DNA from: Candidatus Gastranaerophilales bacterium
GTDB taxonomy: Bacteria; Cyanobacteriota; Vampirovibrionia; Gastranaerophilales; Gastranaerophilaceae
Direction: 5' to 3'
Assembly (NCBI GenBank): GCA_944326645.1
Contig: CALVEW010000002.1
Coordinates: forward strand, 1-36,024
DNA length: 36,024 bases
Position 1 is the stretch's first letter; every line of letters starts with the position of its first letter. Below, in pieces: positions 8,012 to 18,436 of the stretch. The notes under the pieces were generated by a model. That model was not told where the DNA came from. It was given only the letters and a program-made list of their open reading frames with translations, and ran no database searches. The translations under genes and the position numbers were made by a program.

Positions 8012-8401
8012 CTATTTCAAATAATCATTGAAAGATTTTTTTACAATTTTATATCCACAGCCTTCATGTAGAGCTCCTGGATAATAAATTTTTTTGGCAG
8101 GGTATTTTTTGCACATAGGAAGTCTTTTTGAATATACAGAGCAAAGACCTTCATCTGTTACATATTTGCAGGCAAAAATTAAATTCCCGTTTTCATCTCT
8201 ACCTTTTATATAGAATCTTCGGTAAGAAGGAAATAAAAGTTGCATGAATTTAAATTCTTTTTCTGTATAAGTATCAAAACTATACATATAATTGCAACAT
8301 TTTCCGCATTTTTTACATTCCCCTTCAATAGTGTATTCTACTTTTTCCGGAACAAAATAAGATAAAAATTCATTTTTAATATTTTCAAAAAAATCAAGCA
8401 T
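8012..8401 (-). CDS. YkgJ-type cysteine-cluster protein
   Basis: About 129 residues from the ATG at 8401. It carries the YkgJ-family pattern: Cys-x2-Cys-x2-Cys-Cys (CKKCGKCC), then FACKYVTDEGLCSVYSKRL, MCKKYPA and a late GC pair. Family members are predicted to bind zinc or an iron-sulfur cluster; their function is unknown. An in-frame GTG (8419) and ATG (8410) lie upstream. However, a perfect minus-strand TATAAT (8414-8409) overlaps those codons, so transcription should start at 8402-8401 and favours this start. Its stop is directly back to back with that of the GspE-like gene. Two more YkgJ-like genes occur at 23273-24467. Confidence 0.82.
   Translation of the reverse strand: MLDFFENIKNEFLSYFVPEKVEYTIEGECKKCGKCCNYMYSFDTYTEKEFKFMQLLFPSYRRFYIKGRDENGNLIFACKYVTDEGLCSVYSKRLPMCKKYPAKKIYYPGALHEGCGYKIVKKSFNDYLK
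8015..8042 (+). terminator. Weak intrinsic terminator inside the convergent gene
   Basis: TTTCAA (8015-8020), a 7-nt loop and TTGAAA (8028-8033) are followed by GA and seven T (8036-8042). It begins three bases past the GspE-like stop codon region and lies within the C-terminal codons of the opposite-strand gene. The stem is AT-rich, so efficiency is uncertain. Confidence 0.45.
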
Positions 8402-8408
8402 GCTTAAC

Positions 8409-8440
8409 ATTATACTCACATAAGTTTTTTTTGGTACAAT
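8409..8440. promoter_or_regulatory. Overlapping divergent promoters
   Basis: On the plus strand an extended -10 (TGGTACAAT, 8432-8440) predicts transcription toward the PBP gene from about 8447. On the minus strand TTGTAC (8439-8434), 19 bp and TATAAT (8414-8409) drive the YkgJ-like gene. The plus -10 and the minus -35 occupy the same bases, so the two promoters should compete for polymerase. Confidence 0.55.
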
Positions 8441-8477: not shown

Positions 8478-10640
8478 ATGTCTAAATATTCAGTACCAAA
8501 GAGAGTTAAAAGTTATACTAAAGTGAGTCGTTCTAATAATGAAAATGATTCATTTTTTGATAATATAAAAAGATTATTTATAGTAGGAGTAGCTTGTGTA
8601 TTAGCCGGTATAGTTGCATTGAAATTATATCTTGCAATACTTCCTCCAATTGCTAATCTATCAGATTTTAAACCTAATATGGTTACTAAGTTCTTATCAT
8701 CTGATGGTGAAGTAATAAAAACTTTTAATGCTTGTACATTTTCAAAAGTAGAAGCAAATGAAATTCCAAAAGAATTGAAAGAAGCGATTGTTGCGACAGA
8801 AGATAAAAACTTCTATAATCACCCGGGCTATGATTTATGCGGTGTAGCTCGTTCTGTAGTAGAAAATGCTATTGCAGGAAGAGTTGTACAAGGTGGTAGT
8901 ACAATTACTCAACAATTATCAAGAATGTTATTTTTATCTAATGAGCAATCCTTCAGTAGAAAAATAAAAGAAATTATTATTGCAGCTCAAATAGAAAAAT
9001 CAATAACAAAAGACCAAATACTTACAATGTATTTAAATAATGTTTATTTAGGTTCAGGTGCTTATGGGGTAGAAGGTGCAGCCCAAATATATTTTGCAAA
9101 GCACCTAAATCAATTAACACTAGCAGAAATGGCTTTAATTGCGGGTTTACCACAAGCTCCATCAATTTACTCACCATTCAATAATCTTGATTTAGCCGTA
9201 AAACGTAGAAATCAGGTATTATTAAGAATGTATAAAATGCGATATATTGATAAAGAAACAATGGAAAAGGCCCAAGCAGAAAAGGTTCATTTGACAACAA
9301 TGCCTCAATCTTATCTGTTAAATAAAGCCCCATATTTCTGTGATAGGATAATGCAGGAATTAGAAAAACTTGGATTTTCAGAACAAGAAATTAGCCAAGG
9401 TGGTTATAAAATCATAACGACCTTAGATTATAAAACACAGATAAAGACAAATGAAGCTATAGTATCAGATATGAATGCATATGGCTTACGAGGAGATAAA
9501 AATCAAGCTGCCGTTTTTGTATTTTCACCTGTAGACGGCAAAATATTAGCATACGCAGGAGGTAAAGATTACTCAAAGAGTCAATATGATAGGGTAACTC
9601 AAGCTGTTCGTCCCCCTGGTTCTGCGTTTAAACCATTTATATATACAGCAGCCGTAGAAAAAGGGGTTTCTCCAAACGATCTAATTGATGATAAACCTTT
9701 TTCAGCTGGAACTTGGACTCCTCATAACTATGGTAACAAATATAGAGGTCAAATCCCTGTATACAAGGCTTTAATGATATCTTCCAATGTTTGTGCTGCA
9801 AGATTAATTCAATATGTTGGAGTTCGAGCAGTAATTCAAATTGCAAGAATTATGGGTATAACAACTCCATTAGAATATGACTATACAATTGCTTTAGGTT
9901 CAAATGGTGTTAAATTATATGAATTAACAAGAGCATATGGAGTTTTTGCAAATGGAGGTTTTAAAGTTGAACCTTATGGTATAGAACGAATAGAATCTTC
10001 TCGCGGAAAAGTATTATACTCTGCATCCAGACCAAGAATTACAAAAGTTTTAAGTACTGATACCGCAGCAATAATGACTGCAATGTTAGAAACTGTAATA
10101 GAAAGAGGTACAGGTGCAGCTGCAAGAATAGGTAAACCTGCAGCAGGTAAAACCGGAACAACTGATGATTATAAAGATGCTTGGTTTGTAGGTTATACTC
10201 CAACAATTGTTGCAGGTGTATGGGTCGGAAATGATGATAATACAAAAATGGGAGGTCTAACAGGGGGTAGTGTTCCTGCTGTTATATGGCGTGATATTAT
10301 GAAAGTTGCAGTAGATAGTATCGGTAGTGGTGATTTTGAGTATCCTGAAGTTCAATTGGACGGGAATCCAAAATCAATTAATCCTAAATTGACATCTTCC
10401 AGTTCTAAAGGTCAGTCAAATGAATCAAGAATAGAAGATGAGCAAATTGATGAAGTTCCAATGGTTCCTGTAAATCAAATTGAACATGTAAATCCAAATG
10501 TTATTAAACCAATAGAACAAAATCAAAGTGTAGGAGTGGCTAAACCTTCAGCTGTCCCATCTCAATCAGAGCAATCTCGAGTATCAGCTCCAATACCTGC
10601 TCCTGTACCGGTACAGAATCCGGTCGTAAATGCTAATTAA
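8478..10640 (+). CDS. Class A penicillin-binding protein (PBP1A type)
   Basis: This 720-residue bifunctional peptidoglycan synthase polymerises lipid II and crosslinks peptides on the periplasmic side of the inner membrane. A short cytoplasmic tail is followed by a membrane anchor (~31-53). The GT51 domain has the catalytic Glu108 in ATEDKNFYNHPG and the GGSTITQQL motif (139-147). The transpeptidase has Ser382-x-x-Lys385 (PGSAFKPF), S435-S-N437 and KTG (558-560), all intact. The last ~80 residues are a low-complexity Pro/Gln/Ser tail, probably disordered. Length is usual for the family. A GAAGGGGA Shine-Dalgarno sequence sits 5 nt before the ATG. A 12-codon leader ORF overlaps the start. Confidence 0.95.
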   Translation: MSKYSVPKRVKSYTKVSRSNNENDSFFDNIKRLFIVGVACVLAGIVALKLYLAILPPIANLSDFKPNMVTKFLSSDGEVIKTFNACTFSKVEANEIPKELKEAIVATEDKNFYNHPGYDLCGVARSVVENAIAGRVVQGGSTITQQLSRMLFLSNEQSFSRKIKEIIIAAQIEKSITKDQILTMYLNNVYLGSGAYGVEGAAQIYFAKHLNQLTLAEMALIAGLPQAPSIYSPFNNLDLAVKRRNQVLLRMYKMRYIDKETMEKAQAEKVHLTTMPQSYLLNKAPYFCDRIMQELEKLGFSEQEISQGGYKIITTLDYKTQIKTNEAIVSDMNAYGLRGDKNQAAVFVFSPVDGKILAYAGGKDYSKSQYDRVTQAVRPPGSAFKPFIYTAAVEKGVSPNDLIDDKPFSAGTWTPHNYGNKYRGQIPVYKALMISSNVCAARLIQYVGVRAVIQIARIMGITTPLEYDYTIALGSNGVKLYELTRAYGVFANGGFKVEPYGIERIESSRGKVLYSASRPRITKVLSTDTAAIMTAMLETVIERGTGAAARIGKPAAGKTGTTDDYKDAWFVGYTPTIVAGVWVGNDDNTKMGGLTGGSVPAVIWRDIMKVAVDSIGSGDFEYPEVQLDGNPKSINPKLTSSSSKGQSNESRIEDEQIDEVPMVPVNQIEHVNPNVIKPIEQNQSVGVAKPSAVPSQSEQSRVSAPIPAPVPVQNPVVNAN

Positions 10641-10668
10641 AATTAAGTATAAGTATAAGGAAATATAA

Positions 10669-11568
10669 ATGGACAATATTAATTTTGAATTTATTAAACA
10701 ATTAGAACATGGGGCAAATAAACAACAATTGGCTTCATTAAATAAAACGCATGAAACAGTCGATTATGAAACCAAATATGAGTTGACTTATAATGATATT
10801 ATAGGTTTAACAAAAGCATTAGAGATTGCATCAGAATTTTATGATGTAAAAGGTGCTGTAATTACAAAAAATACTCAAGTAACAGGAGTTGCATTAGGTA
10901 CAGATTTATCTGATGCTTTGGTCAAAGCTATTGACTGTAATCCAATTGATGCATTATCTGGGGTTGTAGCATTTACAGATTGTGTAGATAAAAAAACTGC
11001 TATGCAATTAAATGCCGGACATTTAATTATTGCTCCATCTTATAGTGATGATGCATTAGAAGTTTTTGAAAAAAATTCTATCAGATATGTAAAACTTAAT
11101 ACTCCACTAAAGGATTTTAAAAATTATATTGATGAAGAAATCGTAATAACTCCATTTGGCACATTAGTACAAGAAGTAAATAAAACAGAATTGAGTAAAG
11201 ATAATTTCAAGGTAGTTACTAAAATAAAACCACAGGTTGAACAGATAGAAGATGCTATATTTGCATGGAAGGTTGCAAAATATGTAAAAAGTAATGCAAT
11301 AGTTGTTGCAAAGAATTTTAAAACATTAGCAATAGCTCAAGGTTTGCAAAGTCAATCAACAGAGTTTGCGATGAATTATTCTTGTGATACAGCTAAAGAA
11401 TCTGTGATGGCATCAGATTTACCTATTACTATTTCAGATTTTAATGCTGCTATACAAAATAGAGTATCAATGTTTATATTACCAGGTGTAACTCAAGAAA
11501 TAATAAAGTTGGCCGATAAGTATGAAAAAGTGATTATTACAACAGGGTTTACAACTTGTTTACATTAA
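10669..11568 (+). CDS. Stand-alone PurH C-terminal (AICAR transformylase)-like protein
   Basis: This 299-residue protein aligns by eye with the AICAR formyltransferase domain of PurH. Corresponding segments are ELTYNDIIGLTKALE near the start, NPIDALSGVVAFTDCVDKKTA, LIIAPSYSDDALEVF, KSNAIVVAKNFKTLAIAQG and the terminal VIITTGFTTCLH. There is no IMP cyclohydrolase domain. The catalytic motif KHxNPCGVA of PurH is here KNTQVTGVA (67-75): Lys67 remains but the catalytic His is Asn68. The terminal TGxRHFRH is TTGFTTCLH. I infer a pseudoenzyme or an enzyme with a changed reaction, perhaps regulatory, rather than a working purine-synthesis step. It follows the PBP gene by 28 bp with an AAGGAA Shine-Dalgarno sequence. 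Confidence 0.7.
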   Translation: MDNINFEFIKQLEHGANKQQLASLNKTHETVDYETKYELTYNDIIGLTKALEIASEFYDVKGAVITKNTQVTGVALGTDLSDALVKAIDCNPIDALSGVVAFTDCVDKKTAMQLNAGHLIIAPSYSDDALEVFEKNSIRYVKLNTPLKDFKNYIDEEIVITPFGTLVQEVNKTELSKDNFKVVTKIKPQVEQIEDAIFAWKVAKYVKSNAIVVAKNFKTLAIAQGLQSQSTEFAMNYSCDTAKESVMASDLPITISDFNAAIQNRVSMFILPGVTQEIIKLADKYEKVIITTGFTTCLH

Positions 11569-11663: not shown

Positions 11664-12386
11664 ATGACTGTAGCTCTAGCAAATGCATTAAGAAAAGGAT
11701 GGTTTGCCTATACAAACTCAGAAAAGGGGAATAATTATACCCGTGCTGATCGTTTGGAACGTAAAGTTACTTCTTATTGTCAAGATGTTACAACTGCTAA
11801 TGATACCTTAAAAGTAGTAAGAGAAACAACACGTGGATCTAAGTATGTTGATGCTTTATCAAGAACATTAAATTCAAGTGCAAAAACAAGTAAAATGTTA
11901 GAATGGGCATCAAAGGGAGCTAATATTGCAGGAGAATTAGTAAATCCACTATTATGTGTTGCAGCAGGTGCAAGAGTATTAAATGCCGAAGATAAAAAAT
12001 CTTCATTAATTCAAGAAGGTGCTGCAATGGCTGGCATGTTTGCTGTAGAAGGGGTTATTAAATCAAATTTAGGTTTAAATGGAAAACCTGCAAAATATAT
12101 TAATAATAAGTTTTTGGCTAATCTTGCAAAAGAAACTAAAGCATTTTTAGCAACAACAAAATTTTTAAATAAAGTACCAACAAATCGATTAACAGGAATA
12201 TTAAAAGCTGCAATATTTGTAGTAGGATCTTGTACCGGTTTTGCTTTAGGTCAAAAAGCAGGTAAATTAATTACAAAAAATACTACAGAAAAAGATTTTC
12301 AAACAAAAAAAATGATTAAAGAACAAATGCAACTAAATGCGATTTTAGAAAAATCAAATGGTGTTAAAAATATTGCTGTTGCATAA
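11664..12386 (+). CDS. Unknown Ala/Gly-rich protein
   Basis: I do not recognise this 240-residue protein. Residues ~1-80 are charged and polar. Beyond that there are three Ala/Gly-rich hydrophobic stretches (VNPLLCVAAGARVL, EGAAMAGMFAVEGVI and ILKAAIFVVGSCTGFALGQKAG) that could pack as helical hairpins in or on a membrane. The C-terminal ~45 residues are charged. There is no signal peptide. The start has a GTAGGT Shine-Dalgarno sequence 5-6 nt upstream. The 95-bp gap before it contains a small hairpin, ACACTT…AAGTGT (11622-11638), without a U-tract. Its stop codon abuts that of the convergent gene at 12387. Confidence 0.7.
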   Translation: MTVALANALRKGWFAYTNSEKGNNYTRADRLERKVTSYCQDVTTANDTLKVVRETTRGSKYVDALSRTLNSSAKTSKMLEWASKGANIAGELVNPLLCVAAGARVLNAEDKKSSLIQEGAAMAGMFAVEGVIKSNLGLNGKPAKYINNKFLANLAKETKAFLATTKFLNKVPTNRLTGILKAAIFVVGSCTGFALGQKAGKLITKNTTEKDFQTKKMIKEQMQLNAILEKSNGVKNIAVA

Positions 12387-13127
12387 TTATTGATTAATTT
12401 TAATTTTTCCTGTTTCTTTATAAAGTACTTCAAAATTAGTTTTTGAGTGTCTGTAGTTTTGAATTGTTGCTTCCATTGAAACATTAAAAATCATATATAT
12501 TACAGGAACTGCAATCAAAAAAGTTATAATACTAATAAAAGTTTTAATTGTACTTTCTTTCTTTTTTAATTCAGCTTTTTTTTGTTCAGATATAATATTC
12601 TGTTCATATAAAACTTTATTAATTAATTTTTTTCGTTCTTCAATCGATAAAGAATCAATAAATTTTTCGTTTTCATTATTTATATAAATAACGTATTTTT
12701 TGTATACTGCATTTAATTTTGCTTCTTCTAATGGATCAATTTCTTCTTGTTTGTGATTGTTTATTACCCAAGCATTATTAGAATATGAGTCATTATCATT
12801 ATTAATAGGTCTTTCAAGAATGTCTGCAGTAATATTTACAGCACCATCTTCTGCCGGCAATCCTTCAGGTATATTTAAATCTTTTTGTTCTTCTTCTTCG
12901 GCTTTTTTTAATTCTTTATCAGCCATGTCCATCTTTTTCTGCTCTTCTTTGGCTCTGGCTTCTAATTGAGCTAAAATGTCAGGGGTAATATCTGTATTAG
13001 ATAAATTTATAAGATTATTAACTTCAATGGAATCATTGCTATTAAATATTTTTGCCGGTTTTATGGGGATAATACCATTATTGTCCGTATCATCTAATTT
13101 GTTTTGTTTATCTTTTTCGTTATCCAA
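12387..13127 (-). CDS. Unknown acidic protein with one C-terminal membrane helix
   Basis: About 246 residues from a TTG at 13127 (LDNEKDKQ). The longer frame back to 13190 is unlikely because its TTG lies in the -35 box of a near-consensus promoter and its next codons cover the -10. The N-terminal two-thirds is highly charged, with a Lys/Glu-rich probable coiled coil near residues 70-105. A single hydrophobic segment (FISIITFLIAVPVIYMIF) lies near residues 195-215, leaving a short tail. This suggests a membrane-anchored protein with a cytoplasmic head. No family is recognised. It is divergent from the sugar-kinase operon and its stop abuts that of the gene at 11664-12386. Confidence 0.65.
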   Translation of the reverse strand: MDNEKDKQNKLDDTDNNGIIPIKPAKIFNSNDSIEVNNLINLSNTDITPDILAQLEARAKEEQKKMDMADKELKKAEEEEQKDLNIPEGLPAEDGAVNITADILERPINNDNDSYSNNAWVINNHKQEEIDPLEEAKLNAVYKKYVIYINNENEKFIDSLSIEERKKLINKVLYEQNIISEQKKAELKKKESTIKTFISIITFLIAVPVIYMIFNVSMEATIQNYRHSKTNFEVLYKETGKIKINQ

Positions 13128-13161
13128 GGGTTTAACTCTCTCTTTTTGTATTATAATATAA

Positions 13162-13190
13162 ATTATACAATGTATTTTTAAAATATTCAA
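13162..13190 (-). promoter_or_regulatory. Near-consensus minus-strand promoter
   Basis: On the minus strand TTGAAT (13190-13185), exactly 17 bp and TATAAT (13167-13162) form a strong sigma70-type promoter. A second TATAAT on the minus strand follows within 20 bp. It sets the start of the 12387-13127 gene downstream of the -10. Confidence 0.7.
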
Positions 13191-16165: not shown

Positions 16166-18436
16166 ATGCTAGATTTTTTATTTAAAAAGGAAACAAAGGT
16201 TAACAACTCACAACTTTTAAATGAATTTTATTCAAAATTAAAAGAGAAGTATAGTTTTGATACAATTTCAGATGAGCGAAAAGAGGTTTTGCGTGATTTG
16301 ATGAATGAATATGGTTATATTCCTTATTCTTATTCAAAAGCATTAGCTGAATTAAGTAATACTGAAGTTTTATATGCTCTGGAATATAAATGGAAAGCAA
16401 ATAATGTAATGGACACTTTAGGTAAATTCATGTTTGCCAATCCAAGTGTATTAGCAAGAAATAACGTTACGAATTCTGATTGGATAAAAAAAGAAGGTCA
16501 TAATATAAAACTAATAAATTTAGCTGGTTTAGGCAACGGAAATGAATCTGAAGAACCGGGTAAATTTATGGATTGGTTAAGACAATTAGCAATATTACCA
16601 ACAGGTAATTTATCTAATGGAATTTTTAATACAACAATATATTTAATACCATTCCATCCAAGAGAATTTGGTTGTGCATATTTACCAACATCATCAGATG
16701 TTAGTCCAAATTTAGAGGATAAGGATTTAACAGAATTAACCGGACAAGATGTTGAACAGCAGGTTAAGAACTTTATAATGTTGGCTCAATTAGCAGGTCA
16801 CCCTGTAATATATGATATTCTTCCTCAAACCGGTAGGTATTCGAAGGCTGTATTATCTCATCCTTATATAGCAAGATGGTTTGATATAAATGGTTTGATT
16901 GAAGAATTAGAAAAATCTTTAGATAAAGTATGTAATGAATTATCAGATATTAACTCAGATGATTTAGAGATAGTTAAAGGTTTATATAAGCAATCTTTGC
17001 GCGGTGGAATTGGAACATTAACAGATTATTATCAAGATATTTACAGAAAAATTGATGAAAAAATGTTAGATGAGAAAAAATACCTATCAAATGCAATGTT
17101 AGAGAAATCAATTCAAGATAAATTGCATAAGAAAGTAAAAACAATCATTTCTACAATTCTACATACACATAAGAAATTAGAAGAATCAGACATTGAAAAT
17201 CAAAGTGTAATAATTCAATTATTAATAAGTGAAGGAATGTGGCCTGCCCCAGGTGGAGCTTGGTGTTCAGCAGGTGTTCCAATATTTGATAAAATGAGTG
17301 AATGTGGTTCTTATCCTGTATTTAAGCATTATGATTATAAGGGTGAGGACGTGTCAGAATTTGCTAACTTGGATTGTCAAACTCCATATTATTTTGTTTG
17401 TTTAGAAGATGGCAAATTTAATAATGAGGTAGTTAATTATTTTATTAACGCAATGAAAAAACTTCAAAAAGATTATAATTTTGATGGATTTAGAGTTGAC
17501 CATATTGATCATATTGTGGATGCCGTATCAGAGGATAATGGAACTCCAATAAGTTATAGGGCTCCAAGAAAAGTATTAGGAATGTTAAATTCAGAAATGA
17601 AAGAACATGTTTTATATTTTGCAACTCTTGCTGAGTATATGTTATGGGATAATTACTTGAAGGAATACCATGAAGATATGGGATTTGATTTACTATGGGG
17701 AAATGATATTGTTTCTCAAAGTTTCAAGACTCCTCAAGCAATTGTAGATGATAATACTCAATTATCAAATTATAATATTGAATCAAATAAAAAATCAAAA
17801 TTAGGGATTTTAAAAACTTATAACAACCAAGATGGAGAATTTGAAGCAATTGATAGATATCCAGGTCAATTAGGATTTGATGGTGCATTATTTAAATGGT
17901 TCAAATATAAGTTTTTACCAGGTGGTAAAAATGCTCAAAGACCTGTATTGTATATAGATGGTGATGAATCATTTACCAAAACAGGTATAGAAAGAGTTAT
18001 AGGTTCTGAAATATCTATGGTAAGAGAACGCAATGATGATTTCTTTGCTAGGTTTGATGCAATTGATAGGTTTGTAAAAAACAATGATGTAATTGTAAAT
18101 GGAGAAGCTCATGTTGTAAGACAAGATGATGATGGATTTACAGTTTGGCAAATATCTAAAGAAGGTGTAAAAAATGCATTATTAGTTGTTGCAAATAATG
18201 TTTCTCCAACTGAAAAGATTTTAGTAGAAGAAAATGGACGTTCATATACTGAGATAAAAGAAGGTCGTGAGGTATTTGATAAAAATTTAACATTACCTTG
18301 TGATTATGAGATAGTATCTGAGTATAGATTTAATGGTATAGATTATGTTGAAGAACAATTATCTACACCTTTGAAAGATTTGAATATAGGTAAGTTAATG
18401 CCTGCAGAATACAAAATATATTTATTAAGTAGGTAA
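16166..18436 (+). CDS. Divergent GH13 alpha-amylase-superfamily protein
   Basis: A 756-residue protein with recognisable GH13 landmarks. Region II is DGFRVDHIDHIVD with the probable nucleophile Asp445. Region III is LAEYMLW with the probable acid/base Glu490. Region I reads HPVIYDILPQTGRYS (212-226): the usual Asp is present (Asp217) but the Asn-His normally after it is missing. Region IV, usually NHD, appears as YIDGDES (Asp598/Asp600). Residues ~1-150 and ~240-350 are helical insertions atypical of short amylases. The C-terminal ~100 residues may be a beta-sandwich. I infer an alpha-glucan- or glucoside-acting enzyme of unusual specificity; GH13-type phosphorylases and transferases are alternatives. 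There is no signal peptide, so it acts in the cytoplasm. It heads an operon with an HTH gene 1 bp downstream. Confidence 0.7.
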   Translation: MLDFLFKKETKVNNSQLLNEFYSKLKEKYSFDTISDERKEVLRDLMNEYGYIPYSYSKALAELSNTEVLYALEYKWKANNVMDTLGKFMFANPSVLARNNVTNSDWIKKEGHNIKLINLAGLGNGNESEEPGKFMDWLRQLAILPTGNLSNGIFNTTIYLIPFHPREFGCAYLPTSSDVSPNLEDKDLTELTGQDVEQQVKNFIMLAQLAGHPVIYDILPQTGRYSKAVLSHPYIARWFDINGLIEELEKSLDKVCNELSDINSDDLEIVKGLYKQSLRGGIGTLTDYYQDIYRKIDEKMLDEKKYLSNAMLEKSIQDKLHKKVKTIISTILHTHKKLEESDIENQSVIIQLLISEGMWPAPGGAWCSAGVPIFDKMSECGSYPVFKHYDYKGEDVSEFANLDCQTPYYFVCLEDGKFNNEVVNYFINAMKKLQKDYNFDGFRVDHIDHIVDAVSEDNGTPISYRAPRKVLGMLNSEMKEHVLYFATLAEYMLWDNYLKEYHEDMGFDLLWGNDIVSQSFKTPQAIVDDNTQLSNYNIESNKKSKLGILKTYNNQDGEFEAIDRYPGQLGFDGALFKWFKYKFLPGGKNAQRPVLYIDGDESFTKTGIERVIGSEISMVRERNDDFFARFDAIDRFVKNNDVIVNGEAHVVRQDDDGFTVWQISKEGVKNALLVVANNVSPTEKILVEENGRSYTEIKEGREVFDKNLTLPCDYEIVSEYRFNGIDYVEEQLSTPLKDLNIGKLMPAEYKIYLLSR

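Follow-up and report, generated by a model that had tools for sequence, protein, structure and literature searches.

PurH belongs to textbook purine metabolism. The window analysed here, a stretch of 36,024 nucleotides from a Candidatus Gastranaerophilales bacterium, carries a gene for a short relative of this enzyme, PurH-psi, which an initial annotation had described as an orphan transformylase domain that lacks the catalytic His, is intact as a gene, and may sense a purine intermediate or regulate a true PurH. The locus raises the question of what such a protein is and for what it is kept. A literature search, which covered part of the literature, found no published report of PurH-psi.

The transformylase half of PurH with a dismantled substrate site

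PurH-psi is encoded by an uninterrupted frame with an ATG start (Table 1). Its residues 5-229 align to positions 72-301 of the 311 in the PF01808 profile (E=4.2e-43). With the alignment beginning at profile position 72, the IMP cyclohydrolase half of PurH is missing, and the cyclohydrolase-type MGS domain PF02142 has no match anywhere in the genome, which bears out the description of the protein as a transformylase domain only. Structure prediction gave a confident PurH-like fold: the AlphaFold2 model, made with 80 aligned sequences, has a pLDDT of 92.2 and a pTM of 0.90, and the most similar known folds are those of PurH/ATIC chains (Z 30-35). By transformylase homology and by fold, PurH-psi is thus a relative by descent of the bifunctional AICAR transformylase-IMP cyclohydrolase PurH/ATIC (PF01808, TIGR00355, PRK00881), from which it differs in having lost the cyclohydrolase half, the catalytic His and most substrate contacts; it scores far below the equivalog cut-offs (155 bits with the full-length PurH model, where the cut-off is 402). 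The transformylase-only architecture is common to PurH-psi and the stand-alone AICAR formyltransferase NF005492 / PRK07106, but that family is a predicted enzyme, whereas PurH-psi has lost the site and matches the family model weakly, at 43 bits across residues 70-229 (cut-off 415).

Table 1. Features of the PurH-psi locus in the window
Feature	Position	Strand	Evidence or remark
CxxCxxCC-domain gene, transcribed away from mrcA, at left boundary of conserved block	8012..8419	-	PF03692
Class A PBP gene, mrcA/PBP1a type (transglycosylase + transpeptidase)	8478..10640	+	PF00912, PF00905; 28 nt upstream of PurH-psi
Weak Shine-Dalgarno-like AAGG	10657..10660	+	8 nt 5' of PurH-psi ATG, read from sequence
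PurH-psi, AICARFT-only probable pseudoenzyme, 299 aa	10669..11568	+	PF01808 E=4.2e-43, AlphaFold2, dN/dS
EHGANKQQ replacing RYGENPHQ, ligand segment, codons 13-20	10705..10728	+	alignment
KNTQVTG replacing KHxxPCG, catalytic Lys-His, codons 67-73	10867..10887	+	alignment
KPxxEQxEDxxFAWKxxK, codons 187-204, top conservation in dead and active forms	11227..11280	+	alignment
TTGFTTCLH replacing TGxRHFxH, codons 291-299	11539..11565	+	alignment

The substrate site was compared with that of 15 canonical PurHs of relatives at positions invariant in all 15, using human residue numbers (R207 to H592) read off an alignment with solved PurH structures. Twelve of the 15 substrate-site positions are changed in PurH-psi. 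In the N-terminal part the substitutions include R207 to E13, Y208 to H14, N239 to D43, H267 to N68, F315 to L96 and G316 to S97, and in the C-terminal part R451 to Q229, F541 to P252, R588 to T295 and F590 to C297; around residues 250-258 the alignment is uncertain by one residue, so that D257 may correspond to human D546 or N547. Kept are K266 (K67), N431 (N209) and H592 (H299). We take R207, Y208, N239, H267, R588 and H592 to have AICAR-side roles. Folate-pocket residues, according to the available text of PMC6193938, are K266, N431, R451, D339, D546, N547, F541 and G316. Both altered motifs of the initial annotation, KNTQVTG and the C-terminal TTGFTTCLH, were found at the residues it gave, and its reading of a kept Lys beside a His replaced by Asn is right as far as it goes; the loss extends far beyond the His, to the substrate contacts as well as the catalytic Lys-His pair. 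From the lost residues we infer a catalytically inactive protein, and AICAR transformylase activity is very probably absent.

The same picture holds for the clade to which PurH-psi belongs. From titled genome records we took the best 80 of 228 relatives, the titles being mostly those of Candidatus Gastranaerophilales and of uncultured bacteria from gut or rumen; the 75 short forms in this sample are all 293-317 aa long, and the sampled clade members form one branch (SH-aLRT 97). When the equivalents of R207, Y208, K266, H267, R451 and R588 were scored in the 74 clade sequences among these best 80 relatives, none was kept in 41 sequences, one in 25, two in 7 and three in 1. Equivalents of R451 and R588 are retained in 0 of the 74; the Lys at position 67 is retained in 31, PurH-psi also having it, and a His at 68 in 4. 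The KH pair is still readable inside an otherwise degenerate motif in clade members L106, L114 and L129, and among sister species of one genus positions 67-68 vary, K or R being followed by N, S, G or A. In the same 74 sequences most near-invariant residues belong to the scaffold of active PurH, for example SEFxDV (55-60) and the 187-204 segment of Table 1, and among positions at least 97% conserved only two carry a residue that is new with respect to active PurH, N171 (74/74) and Q224 (99%).

Conservation of the gene and its place behind a class A PBP gene

PurH-psi is the only PF01808 match in its own genome (assembly 90.6% complete), and each of the 8 genomes of its genus has exactly one. 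A second, true PurH was thus found neither in its own genome nor in the 7 others; the search for a full-length PurH left PurH-psi as the only PurH-like protein. The proposal that it regulates a true PurH is not supported, since no other PF01808 gene exists in these genomes.

The length of the protein is exactly 299 aa in 8/8 genus genomes, and pairwise Nei-Gojobori dN/dS is 0.03-0.12 over all 28 pairs. The neighbouring mrcA gave 0.04-0.09 (4 comparisons against the same genome) and a sugar-kinase-like gene 0.03-0.10 (3 comparisons against the same genome); the constraint on PurH-psi matches that of the neighbouring penicillin-binding-protein gene. Among the other short forms, pairs more than 75% identical have dN/dS of 0.03-0.13 in 24 of 27 cases, rough ratios, as 3 of the 27 pairs are saturated at silent sites and silent divergence exceeds 1 in most others. 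Because of its fixed length and low dN/dS, PurH-psi is to be regarded as a working protein and not a relic. A pseudogene reading is ruled out by the same two observations, in agreement with the initial annotation, which had judged from the open frame, the Shine-Dalgarno sequence and the normal composition that the gene was not decayed. A homologous fold, the loss of catalytic residues and purifying selection, the marks of a pseudoenzyme, are found together in this protein.

In the window no terminator-like site was found between mrcA and PurH-psi by a simple consensus scan. In the sample of the best 80 of 228 relatives, 71 of the 73 short loci with upstream sequence have the same class A PBP gene as their immediate same-strand neighbour on the 5' side, at a median gap of 17 nt and with overlap in some; the exceptions are L150 and L152, the latter outside the clade on the tree. 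On the far side of the PBP gene, and divergent from it, the CxxCxxCC gene is present in 60 of the 66 loci with enough flank in this sample, while the downstream neighbours fall into 31 different clusters across 66 loci. For the five full-length genes in the sample, no PBP neighbour was found in the flanks examined. The linkage to the PBP gene is thus operon-like, in the window's clade only. Such an order can pass down by descent even where it serves no function, and the CxxCxxCC gene has stayed in the block as well.

In other genera the degenerate forms are not adjacent to mrcA, and mrcA has different followers, which by eye we take to be RNase HIII, LysS and riboflavin synthase. Consequently, the PBP link cannot account for the retention of these forms. 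They neighbour flagellar (FliE, FliF), deaminase-like or MFS genes; a single partner could not be picked from the neighbours over the whole family, as no neighbour is common to it. In genus g18, a PF01808 gene and a close mrcA match are both missing from one genome (G152, 97% complete), although in another (G024) the two genes lie apart. Further side observations concern the window itself. The frame at 11664-12386 (+), which has no Pfam match, follows PurH-psi at the same spacing in 6 of 8 genus loci and evolves fast (dN/dS 0.20-0.34, 4 comparisons). The protein encoded at 12387-13190 (-) is likewise without a Pfam match, and the 756-aa protein of 16166-18436 (+), without one at E 0.001, presumably resembles a carbohydrate-active enzyme.

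Purine and histidine synthesis and the graded decay of PurH in the family

We examined 383 Candidatus Gastranaerophilales genomes, of which 289 formed a high-quality subset. PurC (PF01259) was found in 2 and is missing from the other 381: the family has lost de novo purine synthesis. A PF01808 gene is present in 374 of the 383 genomes and in 285 of the 289 high-quality ones (in a smaller set, in 56 of 58 genomes, the window's own counted); its absence from 9 of the 383, 4 of them of high quality, indicates that the gene can be lost. Five genomes (G015, G018, G022, G024 and G028) have strong AIRS_C matches of PurL/PurM size, yet no PurC, and other purine enzymes besides PurH may perhaps be kept in a similar way. 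Two sources of AICAR were tested for, PurC and HisF, and the window's own genome and genus lack both.

AICAR is also produced by the HisF-HisH step of histidine synthesis (available text of PMC4177761), and in Buchnera, as far as the text of PMC7360925 at hand describes it, the early purine steps are lost and purines are made from this AICAR. Full-length PurH was scored as a PF01808 match of at least 334 bits and HisF as a PF00977 match at E 1e-70 or better, and the two genome lists were transferred by hand into the association script. Both are present in 85 of the 383 genomes and neither in 278; HisF occurs without full-length PurH in 8 and full-length PurH without HisF in 12, which makes 20 discordant genomes (Fisher p 1e-61, a value that ignores shared ancestry). 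Among the 12 PurH-only genomes, 9 show a weaker or partial PF00977 match, and 8 of those are from genomes below 90% completeness. Genus g17 supplies the remaining three, G023, G081 and G107, which have full PurH with no strong HisF or HisA match and stand against a strict rule; the 8 HisF-positive genomes without full PurH likewise count against the explanation proposed below. In G193, G324 and G370, HisF-type matches occur beside degenerate PurH, with a second, adjacent PF00977 match in G193 and G324; these genes were possibly acquired, or are assembly contamination.

The association recurs inside three genera. Counting HisF-positive genomes with and without full PurH and then HisF-negative genomes with and without it, the tables are 9/1/1/12 in g6, 27/0/3/11 in g57 and 11/1/2/14 in g22; such within-genus tables lessen the shared-ancestry problem only in part, and in genus g19 (0/3/0/2) the association was not seen. 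A tree-corrected test, which was underpowered, yielded 4 supported independent pairs, with a mean of 2.6 concordant and 0 opposite (median p 0.25, not significant), on a quickly built tree with long unsure branches, among them G014, G016 and G032. Given the tight association and the Buchnera case, full-length PurH probably serves HisF-positive members as the enzyme that recycles histidine-derived AICAR to IMP, and would decay after histidine synthesis is lost. The window's genus differs from Buchnera, as described in the available text of PMC7360925, in that this AICAR source has gone as well and just a dead domain is left.

The decay is graded, as seen from the number of active-site columns retained (76 sequences, 33 columns of our choice, 20 reference PurHs). 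HisF-positive full-length forms retain 31-33 of the 33 columns, forms without the cyclohydrolase half or from genomes without HisF mostly 15-29, and the window's clade 8-15. Exceptions are G019 (24) and G228 (26), which are HisF-positive with fewer columns; G023, without HisF yet with 32 of 33; and, outside the window's clade, G014 (13) and G016 (8). In many intermediates KH is intact and the C-terminal RHFxH largely so, the folate-side positions 252-257 being the first to change. Less decayed relatives in other genera, for example G072, G163 and G312, also retain KH and the C-terminal RHFxH. Short forms of g6 and g57 (such as L159-L164 and L170-L172), mostly from HisF-negative genomes, are transformylase-only proteins of 314-328 aa with KH and RHFxH retained, and are possible ligand-binding intermediates. 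On the tree, the minimum number of state changes is 6 for the KH pair, 8 for the cyclohydrolase half and 7 for HisF. Thus, loss of HisF goes with decay of the cyclohydrolase half and of the active site, as a correlation.

Possible functions of PurH-psi

These results confirm and extend the initial observation, place PurH-psi in a probable pseudoenzyme branch of PurH and weaken the sensor and regulator readings: of the initial interpretation, the transformylase-only relative without the catalytic His, not decayed, is retained, whereas the regulator role is not supported and the sensor role is unlikely. We consider it probable that this transformylase half of PurH, its substrate site dismantled, is kept as a pseudoenzyme for a non-catalytic job; that this job is protein binding is likewise the better bet. 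The proposed course of events begins with the loss of de novo purine synthesis in the family, seen in the absence of PurC, after which PurH would have survived by turning AICAR from histidine synthesis into IMP. Where HisF was lost afterwards, decay would have reached the cyclohydrolase half and the active site, as their correlation suggests, while the transformylase fold stayed under strong selection. Strong selection on the fold despite the decayed site suggests that PurH already had, or acquired, another function, one dependent on the fold and not on the chemistry. In the window's clade, the gene became locked behind the class A PBP gene, and because gene order is fixed, PBP1a is the best partner candidate, although PBP1a, or wall growth, is a tentative choice of target. 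The likeliest mechanism would be a cytosolic, probably dimeric, protein-binding subunit made with PBP1a, which would tune PBP1a or another step of envelope growth. Human ATIC has its transformylase site at the dimer interface (available text of PMC8780674), so that a dimer could outlive catalysis in PurH-psi by analogy. The full version of this proposal, a dedicated cytosolic cell-wall subunit made with and controlling the class A PBP in a clade of gut Gastranaerophilales, latent in ancestral PurH and exposed when both AICAR sources were lost, is more speculative still.

The protein might instead be a refashioned enzyme, in which the cytidine-deaminase-like AICARFT fold, with new pocket residues, now carries out another reaction. 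New polar residues are fixed in the clade among the best 80 of 228 relatives (besides N171 and Q224, N296 in 72/80, N91 in 71/80 and D94 in 70/80), and part of the fold also matches deaminases; however, the old site varies freely between sister species and just the two residues named above are both new and nearly invariant, so we regard this as unlikely. A sensor of AICAR or ZMP is less likely again: K67, N209 and H299 are still present, and the half-decayed g6 and g57 relatives, with KH and RHFxH intact and their folate side changing first, would suit it, but in PurH-psi the equivalents of R207, Y208, N239, R451 and R588 are altered, the last two throughout the 74 clade members, and there is no target PurH. 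The initial sensor proposal is therefore improbable for PurH-psi, most substrate contacts being lost and both tested AICAR sources missing; for the less decayed relatives in other genera it may hold.

A ribosome-linked role we rank a little lower, as improbable. In Methanosarcina, PurH and aEF2 hold 50S dimers together, a structurally seen catalysis-free use of PurH (available text of PMC12605026 and PMC13324472); in M. acetivorans both PurH active sites are empty (PMC12605026, in the text at hand), and this PurH chain (9ou7) is among the closest folds to the PurH-psi model (Z 29.7). The methanogen ribosome dimerisation factor thus uses PurH without catalysis, as proposed here for PurH-psi, but it is an archaeal full-length enzyme whose dimer is built by N-terminal domains (PMC12605026, same text). 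PurH-psi lacks these domains, which mark an MRDF-type factor, and 38 of the 39 family genomes tested have PF02482, the domain of the canonical hibernation factor; the lower rank of this role rests on these two points. On the same count, a ribosome-hibernation gap is rejected. That PurH-psi is a slowly decaying relic without function is very improbable: graded decay over the family and occasional complete loss would fit, but dN/dS stays at 0.03-0.13 within the genus and between pairs of other clade members, and length is held within the narrow ranges given above for the 75 short forms (best 80 of 228 relatives) and the 8 genus genomes.

The PurH series implies that PurH can serve a function without catalysis, and one structural precedent for this exists, in an archaeon. 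The series can be traced genome by genome: genomes that make histidine have the intact enzyme, others have half-length forms, and at the far end stands a dead form whose length is fixed and which is under strong selection. It offers a natural model for the change from enzyme to pseudoenzyme. If these genes are given the PurH label, many gut bacteria would be wrongly credited with a purine step.
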